From the IMG/VR virus record IMGVR_UViG_3300025543_000050, positions 1 through 46,672 of that record: 46,672 bases of DNA. One strand, 5' to 3'. The first letter of the stretch is position 1, and each line of letters begins with the position of its first letter. Origin of the DNA: a virus. The position numbers were made by a program, and so were the translations under genes. The notes under the pieces are model-generated. The model searched no databases. It saw only the letters and a list, made by a program, of their open reading frames with translations, and was not told the origin of the DNA. Positions 1 through 46,672 of this stretch are shown piece after piece.

Positions 1-260
1 CACAAGCACCATGCGCAAACTGGGGAAGCTCGAGAGACCGGACTGATTTGATCAGGACTGGCTTATACGCCAGATAGTTCTTCCAGATGTCATTGTGGGT
101 GGCGGGCTCCATCTGGTAAATACCGACAGCAGGACCGGCTCCGATCTGCTTCAGGTATTGAAGATGGGATTCTTGAATACCAGTGCCCAACACCAGCTCG
201 GCAGCAGCCTCAGAATACAGGCCGATGTGATTGAGCACCGGGGTGATGACGTACTTCAAC
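1..260. repeat. Terminal direct repeat, left copy (pairs with 46413-46672)
   Basis: Bases 1-260 match 46413-46672 over the whole length except at 127 (c, against t at 46539) and 134 (a, against g at 46546). Such an overlap marks either a circularly permuted genome assembled slightly past one unit, or a terminal redundancy. The two mismatches and the position inside a coding sequence favour an assembly overlap from a polymorphic population. The unit length is then 46,412 bp. Confidence 0.9.
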
Positions 261-277
261 AGATGGTCAGGATTCAT
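1..277 (-). CDS. Endolysin (lysozyme-fold), 5' part, cut by window start
   Basis: This is the beginning of the gene whose remainder lies at 46228-46671; the circular genome was opened inside it. The start is ATG at 277-275, which overlaps the stop of the upstream gene as ATGA. Joined across the overlap the protein is about 153 aa and begins MNPDHLLKYV. Visible here are the QESHL segment, with a Glu near residue 36 placed like the catalytic acid of the lysozyme/SLT fold, and the GIYQMEPAT segment typical of phage lysozyme-like muramidases. The expected role is peptidoglycan cleavage at lysis, in agreement with the two holin-type genes next to it. This copy differs from the right-end copy at two bases, one of which changes Ile to Val. 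Confidence 0.75.
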   Translation of the reverse strand, partial: MNPDHLLKYVITPVLNHIGLYSEAAAELVLGTGIQESHLQYLKQIGAGPAVGIYQMEPATHNDIWKNYLAYKPVLIKSVRSLELPQFAHGAC

Positions 278-561
278 GCGTTGGTCTTATAGTTGAATGA
301 GGACCAGCCACCAACAGCCACCGCCGCATAAAACCCGACAGCAACTCCCAGCTTCAGCGGTGTAAGTGCGCTCACCGGGGTGGTCGCATCCCTGACCATC
401 GCCCTGAAAAACTTATAATCACACTCCCAGCGACGGAGCTCTGAGCCACCCTGGCGGTATCCAGCGTCATGCTTGAGACACGATGCTTCAAAGAACCAGC
501 CAAACAGCGCCAGTCTAACCAGCGTAGGCATCCACTCCGGACCACAAGCCGCGCCGCTCAT
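274..561 (-). CDS. Small phospholipase-A2-motif membrane protein, lysis region
   Basis: This is a 95-aa protein. It contains CLKHDAGY, which fits the Cys-x-x-His-Asp-x-x-Tyr active-site pattern of phospholipase A2, followed after 10 residues by WECDYKFF, whose Asp is placed like the second PLA2 aspartate. The C-terminal third (GVAVGFYAAVAVGG) is one likely membrane segment. It is coupled to the upstream gene by a 4-bp overlap and to the endolysin downstream by ATGA, so it belongs to the lysis cluster. By family logic it could hydrolyse or disturb phospholipids during lysis or entry. The enzymatic assignment rests on the motif alone; it could instead be a spanin-like or purely structural membrane protein. 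Confidence 0.6.
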   Translation of the reverse strand: MSGAACGPEWMPTLVRLALFGWFFEASCLKHDAGYRQGGSELRRWECDYKFFRAMVRDATTPVSALTPLKLGVAVGFYAAVAVGGWSSFNYKTNA

Positions 562-1022
562 TGATCGAACTGCCGATCTGCAATTACCCAGACGATCTTG
601 CCCAGGATAGTTAGAACCTGCTTGGCTGATGCCAGGTCAGTCACGTTGTTTGTGATGTAGGTCTCGATGCCATCAGGCCCAGCGTCAAGGAAGTTCTTGA
701 GCACCTGACTCCCCTTTGTAGTTTGAACAGCATCCCGTCTGGCGATCTCAGCCAGCTCAGCCGCTGTCAGAGGAATGACCGCATACTCGCCGGTCACCTC
801 ACCGTCCACCACGCTGTAGGCGGCATCACCCAGCTTGTGAGTATTGGGGTTGTAATTCGGCACCGGTGCTGTGTACTCAACCCACCCGTGGTTATCCACA
901 GGGTAGCCCTTAGCTGCCAGCTCTCGGAGAGGGTACTGCACTCCCTTTGGTCCAGTGACGACCTTTGGATAGACAGTCAGTGGCCCCTCTACAATTCGAT
1001 TATTCTTCACGTAAAAAATCAT
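558..1022 (-). CDS. Tail-associated protein of unknown function
   Basis: This is a 154-aa soluble protein starting at ATG 1022 behind a clear AGGA ribosome-binding site. The N-terminal half is beta-rich with proline/glycine turns (about residues 1-90). The C-terminal half contains a helix rich in Ala, Glu and Arg (LTAAELAEIARRDAV) and a helical end. It lies directly after the fibre gene and its partner and before the lysis genes, where many phages encode fibre-assembly or fibre-tip proteins. I do not recognise the family and treat the tail association as inference from position. Confidence 0.6.
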   Translation of the reverse strand: MIFYVKNNRIVEGPLTVYPKVVTGPKGVQYPLRELAAKGYPVDNHGWVEYTAPVPNYNPNTHKLGDAAYSVVDGEVTGEYAVIPLTAAELAEIARRDAVQTTKGSQVLKNFLDAGPDGIETYITNNVTDLASAKQVLTILGKIVWVIADRQFDQ

Positions 1023-1031
1023 ATTAGGTTC

Positions 1032-1703
1032 CTATGGAATGAACGATACCACCGTCAGCGCACCCAGTTGAGCAGACCCCAAACTAATGGTCAGCGTCCT
1101 AGTTGCAGTCTCTGTATTTTCAACATGCCCGAAAACACGTTTATGTGATTCTGTTCCCAAGTTTATATCTGTTACCGGGCTATCCGGCCCCCCAAAAGTT
1201 GCAGAGGCAGATGGTGTATTTTGGCAGAGGAAGGCGTACACAACTGCGCCATTTGGCTCTACATCAACAGCAGCACTGAAGGGTGTTTTTGCAGTAAAAC
1301 CGGAACTTATGTCGGTTCCTAAATCATGGCGTCCTGCTTCTTTTGTTTTTAAGCTGTACACAGCCCCATAACACTGCTGCGGTGTATTTCCTGTTGAGTC
1401 AGTCACAACAATGTTGGCTGTAGTACCACTAGAAACTTTACGATAGGCGACAAAAGAGCATCTAATAAGAGCTTCGGCCCCAACAACAGTAGCGGCAACC
1501 CCGCCAATAGTCACTGTAGGCTTTGTGGCTGTAAATGCGCCGGAGTAAACCATCTCGCCTACAACAACCACCATTCGGTCGCCGTGTGGCTCACCTATAG
1601 CTTGGCTGCTGAACGTATAAGGTGATGTGTCAGCAGAGCTTCCAAACGAACTTTCAAAGTTGATGTCTGTAATCGCTGCGCCCAGAGTGTGACGATTAAA
1701 CAT
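1032..1703 (-). CDS. Putative receptor-binding or fibre accessory protein
   Basis: This 223-aa protein is rich in Thr, Ser, Val and Gly, with alternating hydrophobic residues throughout, so it is probably an all-beta jelly-roll or Ig-like fold. It has no signal peptide or membrane segment. Its ATG overlaps the stop codon of the tail-fibre gene (TAATG), so it is translationally coupled to the fibre. A second fibre component or receptor-binding tip is the simplest reading. In BPP-1 this position holds the variable tropism protein, but no reverse transcriptase or template repeat is present here. Function is inferred from composition and position. Confidence 0.6.
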   Translation of the reverse strand: MFNRHTLGAAITDINFESSFGSSADTSPYTFSSQAIGEPHGDRMVVVVGEMVYSGAFTATKPTVTIGGVAATVVGAEALIRCSFVAYRKVSSGTTANIVVTDSTGNTPQQCYGAVYSLKTKEAGRHDLGTDISSGFTAKTPFSAAVDVEPNGAVVYAFLCQNTPSASATFGGPDSPVTDINLGTESHKRVFGHVENTETATRTLTISLGSAQLGALTVVSFIP

Positions 1704-2761
1704 TAGGAAAACCCTGTGGCTGGACCGCCGAATTGCAGCTTTGTGCCATTGGATCTGAATGATAGCAGATCCTCAGCACCAGCGCCTGAGCTCAGAGTCG
1801 GGGCTCCAGCATCACCTAAGTCGAAGTCAGCCGAGTAAGCCAATGTGTGTGTGCCGCTTTGAACAACCCGCAGCGTTGCCCACGTCCCCGCAGGAGGAAC
1901 TGCCGCGACCGCCAGAGTTGAGTTCTGGTCGAGTGTAACAACCGCCTCCGAGTTGTCGTTGATCGTCCAGGTGATCGTTGCGCCTGGGGTGAGTGTCTGC
2001 TCCGGAATGTACGGACCCCCGGTAACTGATTTGGCTACATTACCTGTGCGGTACAGCAGCAGCTCAGCCAGCACTGAAGCATCCATACGCTTGATCACAC
2101 CGTCGTCATTGATCAGGAACTCAGCAGTACCAACAAGTCCTGTGGTCAGTGCGGCTTTATTCTGGATTATCTGCATGTCCAGCTCTGTGATAGCAGCCTC
2201 GACATTGGTGGCATCCAGGTTGGTACCGGTGTTGTCGTAGGCAATGTCTGCTGTGACTACAACAGTTGTCCCTGACACTAGCTCAAGAGCTGTGCCTGCT
2301 GCGTTCCAGCGAATGTATTTATTGGCCACCGGTACTGGTAAAGCCGGGTCAGCCGCGCCGGTGTAAGTCTCAGGCAGCATGGTGGTTCTGGTCTGAGCAT
2401 CCAGTACTTGCTGCATCAACATGGTCAGCTTGTCCAGTGCATCTTCATGGACGTCAGGATAGAACGCACCCTGTGAGTTGAAGTCGGTCAACTGCTTGGC
2501 AGTGTATGCCGATCTCAGCAGCCAACTCGCCCCCGTTTCCAATGCACCAGCAGATCTGACTACCGTGCCACCAGCATCCTCACCGACCCCTGTGACCGTA
2601 TAGTCCACATTAAGAGTCAGCAGGCTGGTGACACCCAGTGCCGTGGTCTCATACACCTTGATCTCACTTTCGGTGGTGATCTTAAACCCATACGCAAACG
2701 CAGTGACTATGTCATTGCCAGAGTATGGACCAGCGTATGTGGCTATGGTGTTAATTGTCAT
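1703..2761 (-). CDS. Tail fibre protein with T7-type N-terminal domain
   Basis: This is a 352-aa protein. Residues 1-130 match the T7 tail-fibre N-terminal domain pattern (Phage_T7_tail): an opening beta region, then DYTVTGVGEDAGGTVV, then a helix containing FNSQGAFYPDVHEDALDKLTMLMQQV. That domain docks the fibre to the tail tube. The central part has a helical segment near residues 175-210, and the C-terminal part (residues 245-352) is beta-rich and would be the distal receptor-contacting part. It is shorter than T7 gp17 (about 550 aa), which suggests that the receptor-binding tip is supplied by the coupled downstream gene. The start has an AGGAAA ribosome-binding site. Confidence 0.85.
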   Translation of the reverse strand: MTINTIATYAGPYSGNDIVTAFAYGFKITTESEIKVYETTALGVTSLLTLNVDYTVTGVGEDAGGTVVRSAGALETGASWLLRSAYTAKQLTDFNSQGAFYPDVHEDALDKLTMLMQQVLDAQTRTTMLPETYTGAADPALPVPVANKYIRWNAAGTALELVSGTTVVVTADIAYDNTGTNLDATNVEAAITELDMQIIQNKAALTTGLVGTAEFLINDDGVIKRMDASVLAELLLYRTGNVAKSVTGGPYIPEQTLTPGATITWTINDNSEAVVTLDQNSTLAVAAVPPAGTWATLRVVQSGTHTLAYSADFDLGDAGAPTLSSGAGAEDLLSFRSNGTKLQFGGPATGFS

Positions 2762-2794: not shown

Positions 2795-5700
2795 TCATCT
2801 TTCAGGACCGTATAGCATCCTTTGGAGTGCCAAGTCTTCACCTTCCTTCATCACTTGATAAAGGTGCTCGCCTGTGGACCACGCCTGGTTCACCCCAGGA
2901 ATCCCGAGAGCAGCGCCAACAAACTTGGTACCGCCCTTCCATTGACCTTTGGTGATCTCTTCATCAGTGAACCCGCGAGCAGCCATTTCAGGGATTGTTC
3001 TTATTCCCTGCTCGATCACACCCAGCACTGGCGATGGGTTGTACCGGTACTCACCAAGTGATCCGTTCACCATGTCCCGAAGGACCGGCACTGATTGGGC
3101 TGGGTAAGTGGCAGTAGCCAGCAGCATCTTCTGGACATAAGAGTCGTCATCGTCATCGTCAGGCAGTCCGTTGCGCATCAGCTCCTCGGTGAGGACTGGC
3201 AGAACGAAGTAGAACATCGCCTTCGCGGCCACGCTGGTCACAGAGTACCGACCAGCACGAGCGCCTTGGACCAGATCCCTCTCCATGTTCCAGAGCGAGC
3301 TGAAGAAGGTCATGAACATGGTGAACATCCGGAACGCTTCAGACTGGTTGCGCATCAGGCTGGCCATGTCTTTGGTAGCACCGGACCCCTGAATGTTTTC
3401 AACAGCCCAGTCGGCGTAACGGAAGGCACGCTGCTCGTCACCCCACTGCTCCATGCCCTTGCTGTACGCGGCATGCCATGTTGGCAGGTCGACAAGGTAG
3501 GTCTGGATGTAGGCGATGTGCTTCATCGAGGCTTCTTGAACTGCTGCCTTGAACCCGCTCTTGCCTTCAATCACTTTCATGGCACTGTTGATCTCACGGT
3601 CCATTGTTTTGGCCCGGTGATTCATAACTTTTGAGTTATCGACAGCAAACTGCCACGCCGCCTTCATGGTATCTGGAGACCCGATGATGTTTCTCAGAGC
3701 CTTGTACACATGCTTAGGCCCAACTTCACCGGCCGTGTTATAGATACCCAGCAGCTGCATAAGACCGGTGCTGGCTTTGAAGCCCATCACACCCAGAGTC
3801 ACACCGAAGCGGAGCTTGCCGAAAGCCCTTTCCCATTCGTTTTTGGTGCGACCCTCGCGTCCTTCCTTGGCGATATCATTCAGCCATGGCTTGAACTGGG
3901 CGAACTCCTCAGGACCAATCACTCGTTTGATGGCGTCGGCCACCGGCTTATTACGGAACAACCGGTTGATCTGACGCACCGCATCGTGGAATGAGATGTA
4001 CTGAATCGTCTCGTGGAAGTGATTGTGAACCACATCAAGACTTAATCGGATCGGGTCATAGAACCCTGTCCGCTCGTTGGTTGCTCCGGCAGTGACTTGC
4101 TGCTGCAGGCTGGCGCCACCGGCGAACATAGAGTCGGTTTCGTTGTCCGCTTTTTCCTGTGATTCCTCGCCTCTCTGCGATCTGTACGGGTCGTACTTGA
4201 CCGGGTAATAACCACCACGGAACTCACCCCATTTGGTTTGAATAGGGGCCGCTTCAACTTTCGGCGGTGTCAGGCCTGTGGTCTTCCGGTGAACCTCAGC
4301 CAGCATCGGGTAGAGAGTGTCCATCTGATCCCAGATCTTTTGCACTAGGATCCAGTCACTCTCTGTCATGTATGCCAGCACTGCCTGCAGTTTTGGATTG
4401 TTGAGGGTGATGTCTTCTTCAACGTCAGGTCTGGCCCAGCCCTCACCGAGCAGCATCTTGCGCAGGTTACTCCGGTTGCCGACATTCAAAGCAACCGCCA
4501 GGACTTGGTGCCCCATCAGCACGCCATCGTTTTTTGCGTCCTTTATTTCAGGGATCAGCAGCTTTTTCAGGTGGCGCTTCTTGTCCTCCGGGGACCGCTG
4601 TTGCAGCAGCTCCATCACCGGTGCGCCCACTTCTTTCCACAGCTCCATGGATTGGTTGTAGGCCTCATTCATTGGCTGCATGATCAACCGGTGCATGAAC
4701 CCGGCACGCTCACCGCCATCCAGCATGGTCATCACCCACGGCATTTTTGACATCTGCGCCATGGCCCACCGGACAGTTTTGCGCTCCTCATTGACGGTGG
4801 TTCTCTGGGCACTGTAGACCGTGGGCTGCTCGTCCAAGTGAGTAACCACCTGATCAACCAGCTCGGCAAAGTTTCGCTGATCCTCAAGCAACGTGATCTT
4901 GTCGAGATACTTGGCCACATGCTCTATGTTCTTCACAGAGTTGTGGATGCCCTGCAAGTCGGAGAACTTGACCTTTTTCCAGTGGACCGAGTACAGCTCA
5001 TCCAGCACAGCCGGGTGCAGCGCCAGCGCGTCACCCTCGGTGGCGGTGCGCTTCTCAGCCCATGACTGCAGTGACTCATTTTTAGTGTCGACTGATTTCA
5101 TTGACTTCGATTTACGGAACTCGAACCGACCGAGGATCTTATCGATCTGCTCCATGTATCCGTTCTCAGCCCTCATGATCCGCTGACGGATTGACTTCTT
5201 GTTGTACCTGGCCATGAAATCAACGGTGGCTACAGTCTTCGCTTTCGCATCAGTGGCCTTGCGAGCGAGGAAGTAATTCAGCAGCTGGCGCATTTTGGCC
5301 TGTGCCGCTGCTTCAGTGTCACCCTGTGACAGAGCAACAGCAGCCTCCTGTGCCGCACGGATCTCAGCCTTGCGATATTTCTCAGGGAACATCTGGGTGT
5401 AGTTCAATCGAGCGATACGGTCCTCAGCCATCTGCTCCATCACCGCACGGTCGACCGACTGCTTCTTGGGCCCGCTGCGGAGCATTCTGAGCTCGGTCAG
5501 CAGCAGCTCAGCTTTCTGCTCGTTCTGAAGCGCCAGGTCTGCCATCTGAGCGATGGTACCGTCGTTCATGATGTCACCGTGCCGGTCGAGCATGACCTGC
5601 TCAGCAGCAGCTTCTGCGGCCTCTGTGAGGGTCGGCGTTCCGAGCAGGGTTTGGATAAACTCCTCACCGGTAGAGAATCCGAAGAAGGCGGCAGCGTCAT

Positions 5701-8700
5701 CAGGAGTCACACCTTCAGCACCTGGCACGGTCATTGCAAGCAGCTTCTGGGGGACGACTCTTGATTTCACGCCCCTCTTGTTTGTGCGATCCTCACCCAC
5801 CATCTCTTTGACAGTTTCCCGATCCATTTTGAATTGACCATTGGTCAGTCGTTCTATGGCCAGATAGATGGGTTGCTCTGATAAACGCTCTTTCTCGTCA
5901 TCAGTTACATCAGCTTTCTCTTGTCTCCACCAGAGCTGCTGGGTGCGCGTGATCTCATTGATCAGCTTAATGCGTAGTGTTTCGGCGGCCTCATCTTTGA
6001 CCTTGGCCACTTTTTCTTTGTAGGCAGCAAACTCTTCCTCGGTTTTGCCGGCCATGGCAGCGTCGGTGAACAATGGTGCGAACTTGTCGCGAGCCATTGC
6101 AATCTCGATTTGCTCTTCAGTGGCAATCAGACGGTCGAATACCTGACGCATCTCATCGTCAAGGTTGTTATCCAGCCGACCGCGCAGGGTGTTGTAAAGC
6201 TGCGTCATCCACCGGGCGAATACGCGGAACGCGTTCTGCAGCTCTATGGTAGGCGCCTTGCCTTCCATTAGATACTGCTCCCACGCACGGGCAAACTGTT
6301 CATGGGTGGCACGACGGATTGCAGAATCCTTGACAGCATCGCCGGTAGATCTGTATTTGATGTAGTCCTCGACATCCTGCTGAGTGATGGACCCAGCTGC
6401 GCCGGTGGAATCCTGACCTTGTGCAAGCAGGTTGGAAGACCCAGCCTGTGCCGGGTCGAATGCTGCGTTGACTGATCGAATGTTAGCAGGGTCGAACACC
6501 CCGACAACCAGGTAGGCGTTGTCACCGACATCTTCAGACTGTCTGACACTATCGAATCCTTTCTCCTGCAGGACGTCCATTACATAATCTGAGATTTCCC
6601 AGATGTCATCAATCGCCGGGTCATAGTTCGGGCTGTCTCTGTCTTCCATGACATCTTCGTTAAACTCTGCCCAGCCGCCCTGCTCATTGAACGCATCGAT
6701 AATGATTTGTCGGTGCTCTGGGTTGTCAATCAGGTCAGCAGTATTCTCAAGTTTCAAATACACCGGGTAAACATTTTTACCGTATTGCTTTGAATACCCT
6801 TCATCCACCGAGAAGAAGGTAGTCCCAGCTCTGCCAGGAGTGAACGCTTCTATATTTGCGGCTTGACTGCCGTGATACCACACCTTGCTGGTGTCGAACC
6901 CAGCTGCTTCAGCTGCCTGCTTCGATTGTTCCAGCACGTTGCCGCCGGTGCCGAGATAGCGGTTTGCCTCTTTGGCGATCTTGTCAGAGTGACGGAGCAA
7001 CCAGCTGTTAATGGCAGGCAGATGCTCACCGTCGTGCTTCATCTCCATCTCGTACATGAAGTGTGCAAACTCATGCAGGAAGGTGCTGAGGTTGGAAGAC
7101 TCAGTCAGTCTGATCAGGCTGTTGGCGGGGTCGTAGTATCCGTTGACTTGGGAGTTTTCTTGCCCTTCGGCGTTGAAGATTTCCTCTCCGACCGGAACAA
7201 CTTCATCCAGTCCACCTTGTGCAAGCCGTCCTCCGGTAGTATCCACGACGCGTTTTGCTGCTTCTTCATAACTTATATCCGCTGATTGTCTTGCGCCCAG
7301 ATCACCGTACAGGCGCTTCTCGTAATACCATAGCATAGCCTGAATGTCCGCAATAGACACATCCTTGCCACGACGCTTCAGGTTTTTCTGGGCCTTGTTG
7401 ACAGCTTCCAGCATGAATGACCGGTCACTGGCGTTATACGGCGCATCCTCTATATTCTCGAATGCCTGCTTGTACAGGGTATTAGCGGCTCTCTCAACAT
7501 CCGTGCCATTTTTGTAGTTCTTTTTCTCATACGAGTTTCGGTGCTCAACAGTCTTCGACAAGGCCTCGTCATCAGAGATGTTTGGCTCACCGATCATTTC
7601 CTTGAATCGAGCCAGACCAATCTTTCGACCCTTGCTGTCAGTGGTGTTCTCACCGCTGCCTGATACATTTTGCAGCAGTGACCCTCTGTATCTGTTGAAC
7701 GTGCGGGTCCACCAGCGATCCATTGTGAGGTATCCGTGCGACCCCATCAGGTTGGCATAGAAAGCGCCCAGCTTTGGACCGAACACGATGGCCGCACGAG
7801 GCAGCGTAACGTCAGCTTTATAGTCTGTTGAAAAATCAACACCTTTTTCTTTTGCCAGTTTGTTCAACTCACTGACGGTCAACTCTTCCATGAGATGGTT
7901 GTGCATCTCAACCGGACCCATCTCGTCGAGAAGGTTCTGGATGTTCTTAATATTAATGTTAATGCTTGCCTGACGGGTGTGTCCTCGTGATGTCGACAGC
8001 TTCCCGGTCTTCTTGTAGTTGCGATAGATATCAACAGCCATCGCGAAGTTGGGCACGACCTTCTGACCGTCAGATGTAATGGCGATCAGCGATGTCATCA
8101 GGTTACGAGCACTATCGTCAGTCTTCAGCTCAGGGAACTCTTCACCGAAGATGTCCAGAGCGCGTTGAAACTTTTCACTATACCAACCAGCACCCGACTT
8201 CTCCGGGGTCTCCATCTCGAATAACACTTCCTCAACCATCCACTTGGCGATCTTGGATGATGTCCCCGGTGACCGGTCGTCTTTTGGAATGTGTCCGTGC
8301 TTGCTTCTCTGACGAGCTTCTAAGGCCGCAGCAATGTCACGAGTTTTGTGAGTCTTGTCGGGGTGGAGACCGAACCGCTTCAGGGTCTCTGTGCCTTTAC
8401 GCAGCGACACTGCTTGATAGAACAGGACTCCCTGATTGTTTACCAGCTTGCCAATCGCAGCCTTCAGCGACTGGGATGGTTCCCAGTTGTTTATGTCGCC
8501 AGACAGTGCTGCCTCGATTGCCCCAGCAGGGTTGTCGAATCCTAACCAGTCGTTGGAATCCAGCGCCTTGAGAAACTGGCGCTCTTGTGGTGACCAATGC
8601 TCTGCATCCAACACCTCATCAAACCCGGACTCGATGTCCAAGTTGTTCAGGAAGTTGTCACGCACCGCATCATAAACCTCGGCTGCGTTATCGTATGCAG

Positions 8701-11700
8701 GCTGATTGAACACCTCATCCTGCGCACCCTCATTGACAGCCCAGTCAGGCAGCAGCCCGATCTTCTGATCAGCGAAGTGGGTATCTTCAACCTTGGCGGT
8801 ACGGTTGGTCTCACCATAGGGACCATAGTTTAACCAGCTGTTCTGGCCACGGGTTTCGCTTGTAAGAGCTTTCCTGGCCTCAGGTGAGTACATGGCCCAG
8901 TGAGCACGCCACGCGTTCTCCTCGCCTGCTGCACGGAATCCGACGCCTTCTTTAGCATGACCGAAGTAATCATGAACCACACGGAACACGTCGTTGGCCA
9001 GCATTGGCACGCCGTTTGCATCCTTAAACTTGGTGTCCTGCAGCAGCGGGTTATCCAGTGGATCGAATGTCTCGTCGCTGCCGAACCCATCCTTGGTGCT
9101 GAACACCCACATGTGGTTATTGTCGTTGATGTCGTCGATGACCAGACGCGGGGTTGCTGCGTAAGGGTCGATCAGATTCCCTTCAGCATCTGTCTCGGTG
9201 ATGAACTCAGCAACGAACCCGGTCTCGAGGATGGCCTCGTACTGGGCCACCGTCTCGTCGATCATTTGTTGATAGGCAGCCTTTACCGCTGGATCACTGG
9301 GGTTGTGCTCCATGGCGTCGAATGCCGCAGCAATGCGCTCAGCACGAGCCGGATCGACCGGGGCGTACATGGTTGGCGGGGTGTATTCCAACCCAACCGA
9401 TTCCATGTACTTCCTGGCAACACTCTCAATTACTGGGTTGTGCTTGGGTTCGAACCCTTCGATGTTGCGGGGGAGTCCTTGGAGGCTGCCGTCGCTCTCG
9501 CGGCCATTCCCCTGATCCTGCCCACTCTGTTGTTCCAGGAGCCGAGTGCCTCTTCGTACTCGCTCAGGCTTTTGTACTGACTTGGTCTCGGACTGTTTGG
9601 CAGCTTCTTCATTACTTATCTCCATGAACACCACATCAGGGGTGCCCATTGTTTCAATGTCCCATCCTTCTGGGGCTAATTCAGGGTTGAATGTTTCTCG
9701 TCCTACTTCCACAAAACCGTACTTGGCATACCCTTCGGTAAGTGGTCCTTCAAACGCATCAAGACGACGCACACCGTTGCGAATCGCCTCGGGCACCATC
9801 ACGCCCATTGCGCCTTCAATGGTGGAGTCAGGGTGTTTAAATACTGAAACCAGGTCACCTTGCCGAGTGATAGCAAAGCCAGCCTTACCATCATCGTATA
9901 GGAAAAGGTCCATCTTGGCATAGTCGTCTTTCGGCCAGATGACTACGGCCGCGCCATTCTTGTGGTCAGCCTTGGCTTTACTGAGTGCTTTGTAAAACTC
10001 ATCAACAATCGCAGTATCCTTCAGCGTAATGTTACCGGGCAGCTCTCCACGAGGGGTGCGTTCACCGGCGGCCTCGCGTTCTTTTTTAGCATTCTCCATT
10101 GCCTTGTCAGCAGATGCTTTGTCGGTGCCGATACCGAACGACAGTCGCGGACCGGTCAGTGTTCCTGATTCACTGGCAACACTCTGACTTTGCAAAGACG
10201 CTTGAGCTTTTTCTATCGCACTTTGAATCTCAGCAGGGGAGGCCCCGGCGACATAAAACTCATCACCGGACACATGGTAGGCCTTGCCATCGCTGGACTC
10301 GTGCAGTGCTGAGGCAATCAACTTCAGCATCTCATCGCCTGCGTTATGACCGAGAGAGTCATTCACAGCTTTAAGTGAGTCGGCATCGATGCTTGCAATT
10401 GCCGGGTATTTACCGGTGTCTTCAGAAAAAGCTCGACGGTTGTTAATTCCTGTCAGCTCGTTGCGATACAGGGCGTCGTATTTTTCATCAGGTGACATTG
10501 CATCAAAGGCAGCACGACGTTGAGTATCAACTCGACGATCAGACTGCCGGTTGTCAGTTTGCACGGTTTCACTTGCCGCACGTCGATCTGTGGCCGGTGC
10601 TACTCTTGATTGTATTTCTTCCGGGGATATTTCTGGGCGCAGTGCATCCAGTCGACCGGTCTGCGGCCCCTCTACCCTGAATCCGCGATCGGCATAGAGC
10701 TTGGCAACCGGTATCCCGGTGCGCTCTGACAGGGCTGCAAAGTAGGCAGGAACCACTTCACTCATGACACGAGCGTACTGCGGGTCAACCTGCCCGGTGT
10801 CGATGAGTTGGTCGCGCACGGTTTCGTAGATCCGTTGTGACTCAACATACTGAACTGACTGCTGCTCTTTTTCGGCAATGATTCCTTTGATCTGGTTCTC
10901 AAACTCAACCGCATCATTGGCCAATCTGAACGGTGTCGGAAGACTGGCGTCCGTGGTCATGTGTTCGCGCAGTGCTGTGAAGTGGTCGGTACCGGCCAGA
11001 GCTACACCGAAGTCGGCTATTGGTACTTGAATCTCCCCACCAAGGGTCGCTGCTTCGCGCACCTGAGCTGCCAGCAGCTTTAGCCCTGGGTCAGCATTGA
11101 TCTCCTCAGGCGTCTTTGTCTGCAGATACAGAGCGGTCTGAGGACCATCGATAAATACAGTGGTGTTCTGACCGGCATCAGCCTTCTCAACAAACTGCTT
11201 GAAGACGTCATCACTGCGCTCACGCACCGACAATTGCGACAGCGCGTCGTTGACCAGATCCAGATGAACCTGCGCCTTGCCGGCCTGCTTGGCCCTTTGG
11301 TCTTGATATGCAACAGCACTGCTGACGACGGTGGACGGGAGACCGATGGTAACGGCCGCCTGAGCGCCTTTGTTCGCAGCCTCGAGAGCACGGGGTGCCT
11401 GCTCGAAGATGTCATCGAGTGTGGACGATAGCGTCTCCTCGGTGAATGCGCCGTCATCAAACAGCTGCATGAACTCACCGGTCACGATGTTGCTGGTTTC
11501 CTGGAGCCCTTCAACAACGCCCTCGGTACCGACAGCTGTCAGATACCGACCGGCGATTTGACCTGCAATTTCCCTGCCAGTTTGGGTACCCAGAGCCTGC
11601 TTAACCTTGTTGCGGATTATTCTACGCATCACAGGGGTGACAGTACGACCCAGTGCTCGCAAGGTAACCATCTCGAGAGCGGCGTTTATACCACCCACAA

Positions 11701-12793
11701 CAATAGCACCGGTGGCTGCCAGGTCTGGATCCAGTTTTCGGCCACCCTGTCTCATGCCCTTGACGAAATCCGGGTCAAGGTTCTCTGTCGACAGTCTGGT
11801 CGGATCCAGCGGTTCGGAATAATCACGCGCAGGCTCAGGCACCGGGGTGTCCGGAAGCGGGACGACGTGCTGTTTGTTGTCGGTCATCTCAACAAATTCG
11901 TTGAACGCCAGACCGGCTTCAAGGTTGAATGCTCCGATGGCTACACCAGCACGACCACCCAGCTTTGCGCCAGCGATCCCGGTGGCGACCGCGCCAGGAC
12001 CGGTTACTACACCTACACCGAGACCAATGCTGCCGCCTATAGCTGTTCCCTTCAACCCTTCAGCAAGGATGTTACCCATGATGGGCAGCATCTCTGAAGC
12101 AACAATAGGTGACTCCTGGAGCCAGTTGTAATTGGGTTCTCCGTTTTTAGAGATGATTTCTTCGTTGTTGAATCCGGTGTTGGTGACAGTGTCACGGCGC
12201 TTCTGTATATCAGCAAGGTCGGCCATGTCCTGGTCGGTTACACCGAGCTCATTGACGCCAAGGTGCTTCCACAATCGACCCATGCCGATCTCGGATTCCC
12301 GCACGATATCTTGACCGCGTTGGAATGACTCAGTCAGATGATCAACGTATCCTTTTCCGAGGATTGCATCTTCCGCTTTCATCATGGCGGGGACTTCGTC
12401 GTGAACCACCATGGCCGAGTCGTAGTTGGTCAGGATCTCATGGGTTGCCGGGTTCTTGCGCATCATCTCAGGGATGTTGAGCATCTTGACAGCCTCGGCA
12501 TGCTCAATGCGCGGTCGATTGCCACGAATAGATTGGAGTGTCAGCCCAGTGGATTTCTTGAGTTTAAGCTCTTTGGCACCCTGCTCCGGGGGCACCTTCA
12601 TCGCTTCACTGAGTGTGCCGGGTGCAGTAGATCCGGTCAGTGACCGGATTTCATCCATGTCAACACTGTCAAACTGAGAGGGTTTGGCTGAGGGTTTTTT
12701 GACACCTGCCGCGACGACGGGCTCTGCTTTCTGAGGTGTAGTATCAGTCAGTGCTCTGATTTCGTTCAAGTCGACATTGTCAAATTGCGACAT
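2795..12793 (-). CDS. Giant polyvalent ejection-type protein (3332 aa): GGDEF, acetyltransferase-like, zincin and ADP-ribosyltransferase-like domains
   Basis: This single uninterrupted frame covers 21% of the genome and lies where T7-like phages encode ejected core proteins. Seen in order: a duplicated SQFDxVDxxEIRxLT motif (residues 2-16, 39-53); a glycine-rich hydrophobic stretch (249-300); a GGDEF diguanylate-cyclase-like domain (770-900) with ELTGINNRR, DADSLKAVND and SGDEF (842-846); an acetyltransferase-like region (915-1060); a domain with HDYFGH (1274-1279); an unnamed large-polyvalent-protein region (about 1450-1720); a zincin motif HEFAH (1907-1911); an ADP-ribosyltransferase-like domain starting WYHGS (1972-2110) inserted before the rest of the zincin (about 2150-2200); then about 1100 mostly helical residues with hydrophobic stretches and an acidic PDDDDDD run near the C-terminus. 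Polyvalent phage proteins are known to be injected with DNA and to protect or manipulate the host. Domain names are from motif recognition; activity is not shown. Confidence 0.85.
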   Translation of the reverse strand: MSQFDNVDLNEIRALTDTTPQKAEPVVAAGVKKPSAKPSQFDSVDMDEIRSLTGSTAPGTLSEAMKVPPEQGAKELKLKKSTGLTLQSIRGNRPRIEHAEAVKMLNIPEMMRKNPATHEILTNYDSAMVVHDEVPAMMKAEDAILGKGYVDHLTESFQRGQDIVRESEIGMGRLWKHLGVNELGVTDQDMADLADIQKRRDTVTNTGFNNEEIISKNGEPNYNWLQESPIVASEMLPIMGNILAEGLKGTAIGGSIGLGVGVVTGPGAVATGIAGAKLGGRAGVAIGAFNLEAGLAFNEFVEMTDNKQHVVPLPDTPVPEPARDYSEPLDPTRLSTENLDPDFVKGMRQGGRKLDPDLAATGAIVVGGINAALEMVTLRALGRTVTPVMRRIIRNKVKQALGTQTGREIAGQIAGRYLTAVGTEGVVEGLQETSNIVTGEFMQLFDDGAFTEETLSSTLDDIFEQAPRALEAANKGAQAAVTIGLPSTVVSSAVAYQDQRAKQAGKAQVHLDLVNDALSQLSVRERSDDVFKQFVEKADAGQNTTVFIDGPQTALYLQTKTPEEINADPGLKLLAAQVREAATLGGEIQVPIADFGVALAGTDHFTALREHMTTDASLPTPFRLANDAVEFENQIKGIIAEKEQQSVQYVESQRIYETVRDQLIDTGQVDPQYARVMSEVVPAYFAALSERTGIPVAKLYADRGFRVEGPQTGRLDALRPEISPEEIQSRVAPATDRRAASETVQTDNRQSDRRVDTQRRAAFDAMSPDEKYDALYRNELTGINNRRAFSEDTGKYPAIASIDADSLKAVNDSLGHNAGDEMLKLIASALHESSDGKAYHVSGDEFYVAGASPAEIQSAIEKAQASLQSQSVASESGTLTGPRLSFGIGTDKASADKAMENAKKEREAAGERTPRGELPGNITLKDTAIVDEFYKALSKAKADHKNGAAVVIWPKDDYAKMDLFLYDDGKAGFAITRQGDLVSVFKHPDSTIEGAMGVMVPEAIRNGVRRLDAFEGPLTEGYAKYGFVEVGRETFNPELAPEGWDIETMGTPDVVFMEISNEEAAKQSETKSVQKPERVRRGTRLLEQQSGQDQGNGRESDGSLQGLPRNIEGFEPKHNPVIESVARKYMESVGLEYTPPTMYAPVDPARAERIAAAFDAMEHNPSDPAVKAAYQQMIDETVAQYEAILETGFVAEFITETDAEGNLIDPYAATPRLVIDDINDNNHMWVFSTKDGFGSDETFDPLDNPLLQDTKFKDANGVPMLANDVFRVVHDYFGHAKEGVGFRAAGEENAWRAHWAMYSPEARKALTSETRGQNSWLNYGPYGETNRTAKVEDTHFADQKIGLLPDWAVNEGAQDEVFNQPAYDNAAEVYDAVRDNFLNNLDIESGFDEVLDAEHWSPQERQFLKALDSNDWLGFDNPAGAIEAALSGDINNWEPSQSLKAAIGKLVNNQGVLFYQAVSLRKGTETLKRFGLHPDKTHKTRDIAAALEARQRSKHGHIPKDDRSPGTSSKIAKWMVEEVLFEMETPEKSGAGWYSEKFQRALDIFGEEFPELKTDDSARNLMTSLIAITSDGQKVVPNFAMAVDIYRNYKKTGKLSTSRGHTRQASININIKNIQNLLDEMGPVEMHNHLMEELTVSELNKLAKEKGVDFSTDYKADVTLPRAAIVFGPKLGAFYANLMGSHGYLTMDRWWTRTFNRYRGSLLQNVSGSGENTTDSKGRKIGLARFKEMIGEPNISDDEALSKTVEHRNSYEKKNYKNGTDVERAANTLYKQAFENIEDAPYNASDRSFMLEAVNKAQKNLKRRGKDVSIADIQAMLWYYEKRLYGDLGARQSADISYEEAAKRVVDTTGGRLAQGGLDEVVPVGEEIFNAEGQENSQVNGYYDPANSLIRLTESSNLSTFLHEFAHFMYEMEMKHDGEHLPAINSWLLRHSDKIAKEANRYLGTGGNVLEQSKQAAEAAGFDTSKVWYHGSQAANIEAFTPGRAGTTFFSVDEGYSKQYGKNVYPVYLKLENTADLIDNPEHRQIIIDAFNEQGGWAEFNEDVMEDRDSPNYDPAIDDIWEISDYVMDVLQEKGFDSVRQSEDVGDNAYLVVGVFDPANIRSVNAAFDPAQAGSSNLLAQGQDSTGAAGSITQQDVEDYIKYRSTGDAVKDSAIRRATHEQFARAWEQYLMEGKAPTIELQNAFRVFARWMTQLYNTLRGRLDNNLDDEMRQVFDRLIATEEQIEIAMARDKFAPLFTDAAMAGKTEEEFAAYKEKVAKVKDEAAETLRIKLINEITRTQQLWWRQEKADVTDDEKERLSEQPIYLAIERLTNGQFKMDRETVKEMVGEDRTNKRGVKSRVVPQKLLAMTVPGAEGVTPDDAAAFFGFSTGEEFIQTLLGTPTLTEAAEAAAEQVMLDRHGDIMNDGTIAQMADLALQNEQKAELLLTELRMLRSGPKKQSVDRAVMEQMAEDRIARLNYTQMFPEKYRKAEIRAAQEAAVALSQGDTEAAAQAKMRQLLNYFLARKATDAKAKTVATVDFMARYNKKSIRQRIMRAENGYMEQIDKILGRFEFRKSKSMKSVDTKNESLQSWAEKRTATEGDALALHPAVLDELYSVHWKKVKFSDLQGIHNSVKNIEHVAKYLDKITLLEDQRNFAELVDQVVTHLDEQPTVYSAQRTTVNEERKTVRWAMAQMSKMPWVMTMLDGGERAGFMHRLIMQPMNEAYNQSMELWKEVGAPVMELLQQRSPEDKKRHLKKLLIPEIKDAKNDGVLMGHQVLAVALNVGNRSNLRKMLLGEGWARPDVEEDITLNNPKLQAVLAYMTESDWILVQKIWDQMDTLYPMLAEVHRKTTGLTPPKVEAAPIQTKWGEFRGGYYPVKYDPYRSQRGEESQEKADNETDSMFAGGASLQQQVTAGATNERTGFYDPIRLSLDVVHNHFHETIQYISFHDAVRQINRLFRNKPVADAIKRVIGPEEFAQFKPWLNDIAKEGREGRTKNEWERAFGKLRFGVTLGVMGFKASTGLMQLLGIYNTAGEVGPKHVYKALRNIIGSPDTMKAAWQFAVDNSKVMNHRAKTMDREINSAMKVIEGKSGFKAAVQEASMKHIAYIQTYLVDLPTWHAAYSKGMEQWGDEQRAFRYADWAVENIQGSGATKDMASLMRNQSEAFRMFTMFMTFFSSLWNMERDLVQGARAGRYSVTSVAAKAMFYFVLPVLTEELMRNGLPDDDDDDSYVQKMLLATATYPAQSVPVLRDMVNGSLGEYRYNPSPVLGVIEQGIRTIPEMAARGFTDEEITKGQWKGGTKFVGAALGIPGVNQAWSTGEHLYQVMKEGEDLALQRMLYGPER

Positions 12794-12803
12794 TTCTTAA
12801 CCC

Positions 12804-43872: not shown

Positions 43873-45362
43873 TGAGATCACCGCAGGACTTACACGACTA
43901 CCAGCGGGAGTGCATCCTGCACCAGCTGCAGCACAATGACTCAATGCTGTGGCTGCAGATGGGGCTGGGAAAAACGGTTGTCACCCTGACCACCATCGTT
44001 GATCGCATGCGTGCCGGACAGGTGAAAAAGACTCTGGTCTTCGGTCCACTCCGGGTGATCAACTCGGTGTGGAATCGGGAGGCAATCAAGTGGAGTCACA
44101 CTCAGCACCTGCGATTCAGTATCGTCCGGGGATCACCGGAGAAACGGGTCCGTCGCCTGTTTAACAATGCCGATATTTTTCTGATCAACTACGAGAATAT
44201 GAACTGGCTGGCCGACACCTTCAACCACTACTACATCAGTCAGGGCAAGCCCCTGCCCTTTGATATGGTGGTCTACGATGAAGTGTCCAAGCTGAAACAC
44301 AGCGGCAGTCTGCGAGTGGCCGGCGGCAAGCGTGACCGTAAAGACAGATCTGGCAGAATACATGAGGTCAAGATCACCGGCTGGCGCAAGATGATCAATC
44401 AGTTTAAGTATCGCACTGGTCTGACCGGGACACCGGCGAGCAACGGTTACCTGGACCTGCACGGTCAGTACCTTGCCGTCGACGGGGGGCAGCGCCTCGG
44501 TGAGTACATCACTCACTACAAGAACAGCTACTTCATTCAAGACTACAACGGGTGGAAGTACACCCCGACGAAGCTGGGCAAGGAGTGGATAGAACACAAG
44601 ATCTTCGACATCACCAAGAAAATGGATGCCGCCGACTATCTCGACATGCCTGAAGTGAAGGTCATCAACATGATGATCGACATGCCACCAAAGGCCAGGA
44701 AACATTACGAAGAAATTGAGAAGAAGATGTTCACCGCCCTCGACTCCGGTCGGGAGATCGAGCTGTTTGCCAAACAAACCATCTCGAATAAATGCCTGCA
44801 GATCTGCAACGGCGCACCGTACCTCAGCCCATTCAGCAAGGAGTGGGAAGAAGTCCACACCGCCAAGCTCGAGGCACTGGAAGAAGTGATGGAAGAGGCG
44901 GCGGGCCAACCTGTGCTGTGTGCTTACAGTTTCCAGAGTGATGCTGAGCGAATCACCAAGCGGTTCGGTAAGAAGTACAGGGTGGTGAACCTGACCGCGA
45001 CGTCGTCGGCCAAAACACAACAGGTCATCGATGACTGGAACGCCGGCAAGATAGACATGATGCTGGGTCACCCGGCATCCATGGGGCACGGTGTCGATGG
45101 GCTGCAGGAGTCGGGCAGCATCGCGGTCTGGTTCGGCGTCACCAATAACCTGGAGTACTACGAGCAGCTCAACGGCAGACTCGCTAGACAGGGGCAGACT
45201 AACGCTGTGTCGGTCATCCGGATCCTGTGCAGAGACACCATGGATCTGGTGTCAGCTGACGCGATCAACCGCAAGACCGACGATCAGGAAGGTCTGAAAG
45301 AAGCAGTAGATCGATATAGGAAAGGTCTGATCAGCAACGACTTACCGCTGACGTTCATCTAG
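43872..45362 (+). CDS. SNF2-family helicase/ATPase
   Basis: This is a 496-aa protein. Motif I is MGLGKTVVTL (about 29-38), motif II VVYDEVSKLKH (about 133-143; DEVS instead of DEAH), motif III LTGTPASNGYLDL (about 181), and the C-terminal lobe has DDWNAGKIDMMLGHPASMGHGVDGL and QLNGRLARQGQ with the arginine finger (about 435-445). It translocates on double-stranded DNA and probably works with the VRR-NUC nuclease in processing replication or recombination intermediates. Its TAG overlaps the stop of the convergent lysis gene. Confidence 0.92.
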   Translation: MRSPQDLHDYQRECILHQLQHNDSMLWLQMGLGKTVVTLTTIVDRMRAGQVKKTLVFGPLRVINSVWNREAIKWSHTQHLRFSIVRGSPEKRVRRLFNNADIFLINYENMNWLADTFNHYYISQGKPLPFDMVVYDEVSKLKHSGSLRVAGGKRDRKDRSGRIHEVKITGWRKMINQFKYRTGLTGTPASNGYLDLHGQYLAVDGGQRLGEYITHYKNSYFIQDYNGWKYTPTKLGKEWIEHKIFDITKKMDAADYLDMPEVKVINMMIDMPPKARKHYEEIEKKMFTALDSGREIELFAKQTISNKCLQICNGAPYLSPFSKEWEEVHTAKLEALEEVMEEAAGQPVLCAYSFQSDAERITKRFGKKYRVVNLTATSSAKTQQVIDDWNAGKIDMMLGHPASMGHGVDGLQESGSIAVWFGVTNNLEYYEQLNGRLARQGQTNAVSVIRILCRDTMDLVSADAINRKTDDQEGLKEAVDRYRKGLISNDLPLTFI

Positions 45363-45886
45363 CTGTTGGCTTTTTTGGTGACGTAAGCATCGACACCCTT
45401 GCCCACTTGACGCAACCCGGCATAGGCCCATGGCAGTGTCAAGAACATGCCGAACAATGCGGGGTCGGGGGTGTCGGTTATCAGGACATAGATGAACCCT
45501 GCCATCAGGCTGAGCCAGCTTTGGCCTGGACGAGTCCATCGGACAAACTTATCAGCAGCGTTATCACCGGATCGGATTGTCTGCTGGGTCTCTGTATGCT
45601 GGGCCTGTGCATCTTTCAGGTCAGCTTCGTGCATCAGTCTGATGTGCTGACGGATGTCGGCCTCTTCCTGCACAGCCAGCTCTCGCAGTTTGACCATTGT
45701 CTCAGGAGACGTCTGAAGCCGTTCTAACACCTTCGCAGGATCGTCGGTACCAGTGGCACCACTGACCAGAGATATGCCAGCAGCAATTGCTCCAGGGGCA
45801 TTGCCGGAGAGAAGTGAACCAACCAGCGCAGTGCCGGTGCCAGCGTTTTCTTTTAACCAGTCTCCGACCTTCGCCCAGTTACTCAT
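45359..45886 (-). CDS. Holin-like membrane protein, GTA-holin/3TM type
   Basis: This 175-aa protein is called from ATG 45886 (MSNWAKVGDWLKENAGTGTALVGSLLSGNAPGAIAAGISLVSGATG). It has two helical amphipathic or membrane stretches at the start, a charged helical middle (AVQEEADIRQHIRLMHEADLKDAQAQHTETQQTIRSGDNAADKFVRWTRPGQ), and two membrane segments at the end (SWLSLMAGFIYVLITDTP, LFGMFLTLPWAYAGL). The 'tkFVRWtRPgQsWLsL' element is that of the 3TM holin family. It overlaps the second holin gene by 8 bp. The upstream frame to 45925 has no ribosome-binding site support. Confidence 0.8.
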   Translation of the reverse strand: MSNWAKVGDWLKENAGTGTALVGSLLSGNAPGAIAAGISLVSGATGTDDPAKVLERLQTSPETMVKLRELAVQEEADIRQHIRLMHEADLKDAQAQHTETQQTIRSGDNAADKFVRWTRPGQSWLSLMAGFIYVLITDTPDPALFGMFLTLPWAYAGLRQVGKGVDAYVTKKANS

Positions 45887-46181
45887 CGCTGTCCTGCCTC
45901 TTGTTGGCTTTTCTCGAGATAACATCGTATGCGATCAACTTGACGGTGGTTGACCCGAAGTACCCGATGACACCGCCAGTGAAGACAGACCAGTTGACAT
46001 CCAACCCCATGGCCAAGATCCCGTAGTACGCCGCTAAACTCAACGAGCCGCAGAACACAGACTCCAGTAAAATTCTGACTGGTCTGGTTTCTTCACGATC
46101 ATAGATCAGACGGAGTACCGCAATCAGCATGGATAAAAGAACGCCAATAGTCTGCGGCTGTAGTTGTGAGTGATCTGTCAT
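45879..46181 (-). CDS. Holin, lambda/HP1 family (Phage_holin_3-like)
   Basis: This 100-aa protein starts at ATG 46181 (MTDHSQLQPQTIGVLLSMLIAVLRLIYD). There are three hydrophobic helices: residues 12-26, RILLESVFCGSLSLAAYYGILAMGL, and NWSVFTGGVIGYFGSTTVKLIAYDVI. The 'LIAxLRxxYDxxETRxxRxLLExxxCGxLsl' pattern is typical of this holin family. It should form the inner-membrane lesion that releases the endolysin encoded immediately upstream. GGAAAC lies before the ATG. Confidence 0.85.
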   Translation of the reverse strand: MTDHSQLQPQTIGVLLSMLIAVLRLIYDREETRPVRILLESVFCGSLSLAAYYGILAMGLDVNWSVFTGGVIGYFGSTTVKLIAYDVISRKANKRQDSDE

Positions 46182-46227: not shown

Positions 46228-46671
46228 TTACCGGTACCGTCCCCAGTTGTGAATATACTCAGTGGTAGTGCCTTTTCCTTGAGTGGTATTGTACCAAGTC
46301 TTCCAATAATGTGCTTGACCTACAATATCACCGGCTGCAGGGAGAGGGGCAGAGACGCGACGGTAATGGATACGACACATGGCTGTGGCGTAGTATAGAT
46401 TGCCGATCATTTCACAAGCACCATGCGCAAACTGGGGAAGCTCGAGAGACCGGACTGATTTGATCAGGACTGGCTTATACGCCAGATAGTTCTTCCAGAT
46501 GTCATTGTGGGTGGCGGGCTCCATCTGGTAAATACCGATAGCAGGGCCGGCTCCGATCTGCTTCAGGTATTGAAGATGGGATTCTTGAATACCAGTGCCC
46601 AACACCAGCTCGGCAGCAGCCTCAGAATACAGGCCGATGTGATTGAGCACCGGGGTGATGACGTACTTCAA
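46228..46671 (-). CDS. Endolysin (lysozyme-fold), main part; cut by window end
   Basis: These 147 residues (read from a TTG at 46671 only because the true ATG lies past the window end, at base 277 of the left copy) encode LGTGIQESHLQYLKQIGAGPAIGIYQMEPATHNDIW, with the predicted catalytic Glu in QESHL, and a C-terminal helical part with WKTWYNTTQGKGTTTEYIHNWGRY. This belongs to the lysozyme-like muramidase group common in podoviruses. It cleaves cell-wall glycan after holin action. The complete protein would be about 153 aa. The stop is followed by 46 bp before the holin gene. Confidence 0.8.
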   Translation of the reverse strand: MKYVITPVLNHIGLYSEAAAELVLGTGIQESHLQYLKQIGAGPAIGIYQMEPATHNDIWKNYLAYKPVLIKSVRSLELPQFAHGACEMIGNLYYATAMCRIHYRRVSAPLPAAGDIVGQAHYWKTWYNTTQGKGTTTEYIHNWGRYR

Positions 46672-46672
46672 C
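46413..46672. repeat. Terminal direct repeat, right copy (pairs with 1-260)
   Basis: This matches bases 1-260 with two substitutions (46539 t, 46546 g). It defines the closing point of the circular map. Confidence 0.9.

Follow-up and report, generated by a model that had tools for sequence, protein, structure and literature searches.

Among phospholipase A2 (PLA2) enzymes of viral or prophage origin, the parvovirus capsid PLA2 acts at entry into animal cells, and prophage-borne PLA2 such as streptococcal SlaA are known conversion genes. The patatin fold is unrelated to the PLA2 fold. A phospholipase in a phage lysis cassette was proposed earlier for Wolbachia phage WO, whose putative patatin-based lytic cassette places the phospholipase beside a small holin-like protein with transmembrane (TM) and coiled-coil segments; this cassette has no endolysin (PMC9203015). 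PLA2-like phage genes have also been annotated already.

Disruption of the outer membrane at the last lysis step is attributed to spanins (Rz/Rz1 pairs and u-spanins) and disruptins (PMC6139136; PMC9239132). A survey identified no spanin in 91 of 677 phages (~13%) and posed as an open question by what means such phages breach the outer membrane (PMC6139136). The string "phospholip" does not occur in that article, and the main text of a 2025 survey of lytic proteins mentions no phospholipase, lipase or disruptin (PMC12596118).

A further described system is TtaP, a DUF1353 protein without an overt signal sequence that was shown to be a PLA2 and was active in E. coli lysates, while its Asp85Ala mutant was inactive (PMC11525133). 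TtaP is active without disulfide cysteines, and neither a secretion or envelope phenotype nor overt damage in intact cells was found; its authors suspect regulation or spatial restriction, as well as outer-membrane perturbation, without a phenotype (PMC11525133). It is encoded in the typhoid toxin islet, together with a muramidase related to prophage muramidases (PMC11525133). Here we describe a PLA2-like gene in a phage lysis cassette and compare it with these systems.

RESULTS

The DNA analyzed here (the window) comprises 46,672 bases and is a virus record from IMG/VR. An earlier note on it, made from the sequence alone, had described a 95-aa protein with a PLA2-like motif, coupled to an endolysin. 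Indeed, the list of open reading frames (ORFs) contains a 95-aa ORF at 274-561 on the minus strand, the translation of which includes C28-x2-H31-D32-x2-Y35 and C47-D48. The coupling to the endolysin-like gene is likewise there, as an ATGA overlap, and a second ATGA overlap joins the ORF to the 154-aa gene upstream (Table 1).

The ends of the record, 1-260 and 46413-46672, repeat each other over 260 bases with 2 mismatches. Because the ends overlap, the record is a circular assembly with slight variation, and the edge of the window cuts the endolysin-like gene in two. A related contig (L002; loci with related genes are given L numbers) encodes a 95-aa protein with 98% identity and spans the window junction without a break. 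Read from L002, the gene order is tail-fiber-type protein, 223-aa protein, 154-aa protein, 95-aa protein, endolysin-like protein, lambda S-type holin and the 188-aa phrog_1544 protein, followed by a convergent helicase gene.

The full endolysin-like protein of L002 has 153 aa and matches phrog_3108 (E=8.1e-40), a family without a named function. It matched no Pfam family, and a profile search of its family against the PDB gave nothing useful. We call this neighbor an endolysin because distant relatives are annotated or placed as such. Those of Pseudoalteromonas phage RIO-1 and Alteromonas phage ZP6 (31% identity each) are annotated as endolysin, the former with a transglycosylase SLT note, and the relative in phiKO2 is Gp54, within the Gp53-Gp56 run, which we take to be a holin-endolysin-Rz-Rz1 cassette.

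To judge from matches of other structural genes to phrog_332 (head-tail adaptor) and phrog_376 (tail protein), the virus would be a short-tailed phage. On the late strand, a 3332-aa single gene at 2795-14465 adjoins a 553-aa gene with endolysin-type matches (phrog_10475); the products of both are perhaps virion proteins.

Table 1. Features of the window around the PLA2-like gene
Feature	Position	Strand	Basis or remark
95-aa phospholipase A2-like protein, phrog_6098 family	274..561	-	ORF, phrog_6098 match, family profile to PDB PLA2, AlphaFold2 models
Cys6-Gly7	541..546	-	Invariant, 35/35; putative role: probably equivalent to Cys-Gly of the PLA2 calcium loop, with the Cys as one partner in a likely disulfide
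Active-site segment Cys28-x2-His31-Asp32-x2-Tyr35	457..480	-	C, H and D 35/35, Y 32/35; aligns with the active-site segment of 1faz
Asp48, counterpart of the Asp in the catalytic His/Asp pair	418..420	-	D in 30/35
Residues 67-88, probably third core helix	298..363	-	AlphaFold2 helix 67-88; aligned to soluble PLA2 helix; charged in 13/35 rows
ATGA overlap, start of 95-aa gene and stop of upstream 154-aa gene	558..561	-	Sequence, ORFs
ATGA overlap, stop of 95-aa gene and start of endolysin-like gene	274..277	-	Sequence, ORFs
Endolysin-like protein, phrog_3108, first 92 codons, cut by window edge	2..277	-	phrog_3108 E=1.8e-20; distant relatives annotated endolysin
Endolysin-like gene, second, nearly whole copy at the other end (circular redundancy)	46228..46671	-	End overlap; complete gene (153 aa) in L002
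Lambda S-type holin, 107 aa	45879..46202	-	PF05106 E=7.8e-18; phrog_126 E=3.3e-20; scanned as L002 homologue
188-aa protein, phrog_1544, last gene of the cassette	45359..45925	-	Scanned as L002 homologue; holin-like guess by eye only
154-aa protein just before the PLA2-like gene	558..1022	-	No family match in Pfam and PHROG scans
352-aa tail-fiber-type protein	1703..2761	-	phrog_1640 (tail protein) E=1.4e-25

The 95-aa protein matched phrog_6098 (E=1.6e-7), and so did 14 of the 16 members of a 16-sequence family alignment and 12 of 17 further records, those of L014, L087, L091, L092 and L093 giving no match. As a single sequence, it reached E=0.11 with PF09056 (13.6 bits, below the Pfam cutoff of 29.4 bits) and E=0.3 with 1faz, the Streptomyces PLA2. 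Scans of viral contigs yielded homologues from 98% down to 23-26% identity, and PF09056 was matched at E<=0.1 by 18 of 29 family members (best 8.7e-10), the window protein not being among them. When the 16-sequence profile was searched against the PDB, four sequences were returned at E<=10, and all were PLA2 (1faz, 1.8e-8; 4aup, the Tuber enzyme, 2.5e-5). A profile built from seven close relatives only returned 1faz (3.7e-5), 4aup (0.04) and nothing else, and a 29-sequence profile returned 1faz at 1.2e-9, with an aquaporin as the fifth chain at 1.7. This profile similarity to solved members places the family in the PLA2 superfamily, group XIV type, and the 95-aa protein is, on sequence grounds, almost certainly homologous to PLA2. 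The family profile and the conserved catalytic residues described below thus bear out the PLA2-like character claimed in the earlier note, with the fold ranking in agreement.

Other searches were less productive. NCBIfam had no family for the window protein. In tblastn against 50,697 phage records, neither the window protein nor the L028 and L019 proteins had a match at E<=1, and the L011 protein found nothing better than E=2. A profile scan of genome contigs with the early family alignment revealed no relative; a second scan, with L031, revealed 13 loci. In Methylophaga thiooxydans DMS010, twelve loci (L034-L045) each carry a PLA2-like gene, all at one and the same identity to the query, a pattern that a Mu-like phage in multiple copies would give. 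Of 369 genomes from the same class as the Methylophaga genome, 7 matched at 1e-3, the center genome included, and two of the matches were below 1e-30; among 398 genomes of its phylum, only the center genome matched at 1e-5. In the control genomes, phrog_6098 and the DUF1353 family PF07087 both match in Caulobacter vibrioides.

Two AlphaFold2 models of the 95-aa protein had mean pLDDT values of 82.0 and 87.6, with poorly modeled first residues. For both models, the first four rows from Foldseek and from VIA were PLA2. The scores were modest: PLA2 entries had Z values of 6.9-7.9 with the first model, against 5.1 for the best unrelated entry, and lower ones, 5.8-6.7, with the second, more confident model, against 5.6 for the best unrelated entry. 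Foldseek against the PDB gave no match at E<=0.001 for either model, and the single BFVD match at E<=0.001 was a phage protein named phospholipase A2.

The window protein shares several features with the secreted group XIV enzymes (PF09056; 1faz, and 4aup, which carries the label group XIII in the PDB): the HD active site with a downstream Asp, two cysteines on either side of the loop that precedes the active site, and a third helix ending in A-x2-YY-x2-V-x3-G. In contrast to them, it is 95 aa long, has a short N terminus, no signal peptide by eye and too few cysteines for a second disulfide, and is the product of a putative phage late gene. The NGCG...C-x2-HD-x2-Y...D layout is also found in gene 09 of Vibrio phage 1.097.O, annotated "phospholipase A2 domain protein" (MG592470), which overlaps a lipobox-protein gene. 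This gene differs in that its product has 134 aa and that it lies between terminase and head-completion genes, with a peptidase M15 gene ~12 kb away.

Residue conservation was counted in 35 aligned sequences, which include the window and near-duplicates. The earlier note had named non-conserved His and Asp in homologues as evidence that would speak against its reading. We found Cys6, Gly7, Cys28, His31, Asp32 and Gly38 to be invariant (35/35). Tyr35 is Tyr in 32 sequences, Phe in two and His in one, and Asp48 is kept in 30, with Asn in four and Gln in one (L086, which has a long insertion there). Hence, the window protein has both the catalytic His-Asp segment and the second Asp of the PLA2 superfamily. 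Of the downstream CD pair pointed out earlier, the Asp stood the comparison and C47 did not, being variable among the relatives. The Asp48-to-Asn exchange occurs in L068, L087, L092 and L093, the last two of which also have Phe for Tyr35; judging from these exchanges, the four proteins may have a changed activity.

Cys6 and Cys28 are at positions where group XIV enzymes presumably have a disulfide, and a Cys6-Cys28 disulfide connecting the loop to the active-site helix is likely in the 95-aa protein. Before the active site, several of the deeper relatives have the sequence NGCGGKG or NGCGSKG, similar to the calcium loop of secreted PLA2. The window protein has AACGPEW there, and its ACGPEW stretch was modeled with low confidence and is unlike the CGGKG-type loop.

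The exchanges at Asp48 and Tyr35 could be read as signs of a non-catalytic protein of PLA2 shape, such as a structural protein or a chaperone, and in line with this, 6 of 16 members matched phrog_1158 ("tail assembly chaperone") at E<=0.1, the window protein itself reaching E=0.29. However, His31, Asp32 and the Cys pair do not vary, and TtaP, with its inactive Asp85Ala variant, is an active member of DUF1353 (PMC11525133). We consider a loss of catalysis very improbable. By analogy with TtaP, a DUF1353 protein that is likewise leaderless and for which PLA2 activity has been shown, we hold it likely that the 95-aa protein is an enzymatically active PLA2.

The earlier note had also proposed a C-terminal membrane helix. 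This proposal was not upheld: the maximum 19-residue hydropathy of the segment is 1.36 in the window protein, 4-6 charged residues are present in 13 of the 35 rows, and in the alignment, the helix falls on the final helix of the Streptomyces enzyme, which is soluble. A membrane anchor was not accepted although simple hydropathy is borderline, with values of >=1.6 (19 residues) in the segment of 6 of the 35 rows and an overall peak of 1.67 in the window protein. Because of the alignment to the soluble enzyme and the charged residues, we think that the segment more probably forms helix three of the PLA2 fold than a membrane helix. With no lipobox in the ORF and a C-terminal helix that is probably part of the core, the protein also does not have the makeup of a unimolecular spanin. 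It shares with spanins and disruptins the proposed job, outer-membrane disruption, but differs from spanins in having no lipobox and probably no transmembrane helix, and in being a putative enzyme instead of a membrane-fusing protein.

DUF1353 (PF07087) was not listed for the window protein at E<=10, and 4 of 29 family members matched it at E<=0.1 (best 0.022). A DUF1353 prophage protein, compared as a single sequence with the alignment of the phrog_6098 family, gave a probability of 86.9 and E=4e-6, suggesting that the two families are related, but only distantly. Like the 95-aa protein, TtaP is a small leaderless PLA2-like protein, and a muramidase gene is close by in its islet; unlike it, TtaP belongs to a separate family, is without disulfide cysteines and showed no phenotype (PMC11525133).

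Relatives of the DUF1353 prophage protein were found in 257 of the 50,697 phage records. Among 40 listed of those 257, the label is tail assembly chaperone in 8 and tail assembly or assembly-like protein in another 3. The chaperone label, on DUF1353-like proteins (e.g., H94, H99, H106 and H108) and on phrog_1158, may be a misannotation, given that TtaP, the member assayed, is a PLA2. Four named contexts of DUF1353-like genes, which were picked by hand and do not give a rate, were inspected. In Salmonella phage IME207 (L152), genes annotated as lysin, holin, i-spanin and o-spanin are directly followed by the DUF1353-like gene. In a Helicobacter prophage, it adjoins a lysozyme gene (motif HDFLC, without the Tyr), and in FNU2, it lies two genes before an amidase gene. 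In Campylobacter phage CJIE4-2, its neighbors are unnamed, and the preceding gene product is multi-TM and holin-like by eye. Furthermore, among five DUF1353 loci viewed of ten found, L141 is in a lysis-like cassette by eye and three are not. The CJIE1 homologue cje0229 was called a putative secreted PLA2 (PMC4004267).

Next to the PLA2-like genes of 31 representative loci, at least one small plus-strand protein with a predicted TM segment was encoded within three genes downstream in 16 of the 29 loci that have downstream genes, and within three genes upstream in 6 of the 31. In these counts, L002 stands for the window, relatives of one another are counted apart, and L003 enters via a doubtful 215-aa gene, its real 83-aa TM neighbor having been masked.

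Lysis genes matched by profiles were found mostly in distant relatives. In L014 (26% identity), the order is PF05105 holin (2.4e-9), PLA2, lipobox protein and GH108 (3.3e-21); in L084 (31%), PLA2, an Rz-like match to phrog_739 (1.3e-4), a small TM protein and a phage lysozyme (1.1e-10); and in L085 (30%), PLA2, two TM proteins and an endolysin of phrog_894 (8.7e-18). L020 (48%) has an Rz-like match (3.9e-8) four genes downstream of PLA2, L089 (33%) has an Rz/Rz1-like pair near PLA2, recognized by architecture, and in L023, a lysozyme is encoded upstream (E=9e-4, below the Pfam cutoff). In L003 and L011 (65%), the closest relatives besides L002, the PLA2 gene is followed by a small TM gene and then tail genes, with no adjoining endolysin; the TM gene had no lysis-named match in Pfam and PHROG scans. 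No lysis gene was seen by eye beside PLA2 in L012, L019, L028, L030, L031, L032, L068 and L071, most of which have it among tail genes, nor in L078, L083 and L086. The membership in a lysis gene set claimed in the earlier note therefore holds for the window and several distant relatives, but not for the closest ones.

A lipobox gene was present among 6 of 53 genes adjacent to PLA2 and among 2 of 173 other small genes, four of the six coming from one lineage. It overlaps or abuts the PLA2 gene in L013-L016, L093 and L140 (Vibrio phage 1.097.O), three lineages in our judgment, and PLA2 and the lipoprotein may together form a separate module.

Since the PLA2 gene directly follows tail-fiber or fiber-assembly-like genes in many lineages (by eye), including L003 and L011, the enzyme might instead travel with the tail and help the phage to cross or remodel the envelope at entry, comparable to the parvovirus capsid PLA2 in animal cells. 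Some phages indeed have no lysis genes among the visible neighbors, and parvovirus VP1 folds are weak BFVD neighbors of the models. Such a virion-linked role is nevertheless unlikely in our view: the protein is small and has no extra domain for virion binding, and in L013-L016, its gene is away from the tail fibers and beside a lipobox gene, lying in L014 between the holin and endolysin genes.

Some loci would also fit a cargo (moron) gene that alters the host membrane in infection or lysogeny, for example, to exclude superinfecting phages or to benefit the host, and does not contribute to lysis. By eye, PLA2 lies between tail genes and a UmuD-like gene in L019, and before com- and dam-like genes in L030, L031 and L068; prophage-borne SlaA is a precedent. 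On the other hand, no signal peptide is apparent in the N termini by eye, and the ATGA coupling to an endolysin-like gene and the placement at lysis genes in several lineages are at odds with this role, which we think quite improbable.

The HMM-backed lysis neighbors are mostly in distant relatives, and L003 and L011 have none; judged from the gene neighborhood, the chances of a lysis role of the 95-aa protein are about even.

The earlier note found no clear spanin gene pair and suggested the PLA2-like protein as a different solution. Within the limits of the methods, we also detected no spanin pair in the window: an Rz/Rz1 overlap finder, applied with the ends joined, found none, and a lipobox scan found nothing in the lysis region. 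Four lipobox ORFs elsewhere in the window were discarded. Three of them run antisense to other genes (one to the giant gene and two to the 446-aa gene at 38359-39699), and the fourth is a 35-aa frame within the ORF at 23356-24912. The negative is weak, as the sensitivity of the finder is limited; it returned no pair for three Vibrio loci taken for comparison (L006-L008), two of which (L007 and L008) encode, by eye, a lipoprotein resembling an o-spanin.

Among 21 other PLA2-bearing stretches, many of which are partial genomes, Rz/Rz1-like pairs were found in three (L089, L020 and L019), the pair in the L019 contig being ~20 kb from the PLA2 gene. A fourth reported pair, in L101, was judged a low-complexity false match. 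These three pairs and the spanins of IME207 rule out spanin replacement as a general rule, and for this phage, the suggested different solution is a conjecture. We consider it doubtful that the 95-aa protein is the sole outer-membrane disruptor in this phage. Alteromonas phage vB_AmaP_AD45-P1 (H71), which has a relative of the endolysin-like protein of the window, is on a published list of spanin-less phages (PMC6139136).

DISCUSSION

The reading we prefer, with a probability of roughly 0.5, is that the 95-aa protein is a leaderless late PLA2 that is released with the endolysin and cuts envelope phospholipids as an accessory of lysis. A small leaderless PLA2, kin to the group XIV enzymes that bacteria and fungi secrete, would be made late, together with tail-fiber and lysis proteins. 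In the cytosol, it would be harmless, with calcium low, the conserved cysteine pair reduced and the substrate out of reach, which would amount to a calcium/redox switch. Once the holin opens the inner membrane, the PLA2 would exit with the endolysin and cut phospholipids of the inner and outer membranes, using the His31/Asp48 pair and calcium bound by Asp32 and the Cys6-Gly7 loop. The resulting lysolipids and fatty acids would weaken the outer membrane and aid the bursting of the cell. In this phage, the PLA2 would perhaps be the main outer-membrane disruptor, and in relatives with spanins, it would be an accessory. The closest precedent is TtaP. What we observed are the gene, its couplings, the profile match to the PLA2 family, the conserved catalytic residues and, here and in several relatives, the lysis-gene neighborhood; from these, we infer the activity, the timing, the calcium switch, the target membrane and the effect on lysis.

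More broadly, and tentatively, phages may have an unrecognized lysis component, a leaderless calcium-switched PLA2 of the phrog_6098 and DUF1353 families. It would serve the outer-membrane step without a spanin in some phages, including this one, and with a small lipoprotein or spanins in others.

Our literature search on PLA2 and phage lysis, which covered search listings and mainly freely available papers, returned no sPLA2-fold protein in a lysis cassette but only the patatin proposal for phage WO and TtaP. Within the literature searched, we found no description of an sPLA2-fold family that recurs in lysis cassettes. Such a family differs from the system of phage WO, where the phospholipase is of the patatin type.

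PLA2 in lysis cassettes would be a directly testable answer for some spanin-less phages. IME207, which is cultivable and has its DUF1353-like gene right after the spanin pair, would be a good test system. In addition, a function is suggested for two phage families that are labeled unknown or "tail assembly chaperone," and there is a possible reason why a leaderless PLA2 and a phage-type muramidase share the typhoid toxin islet.
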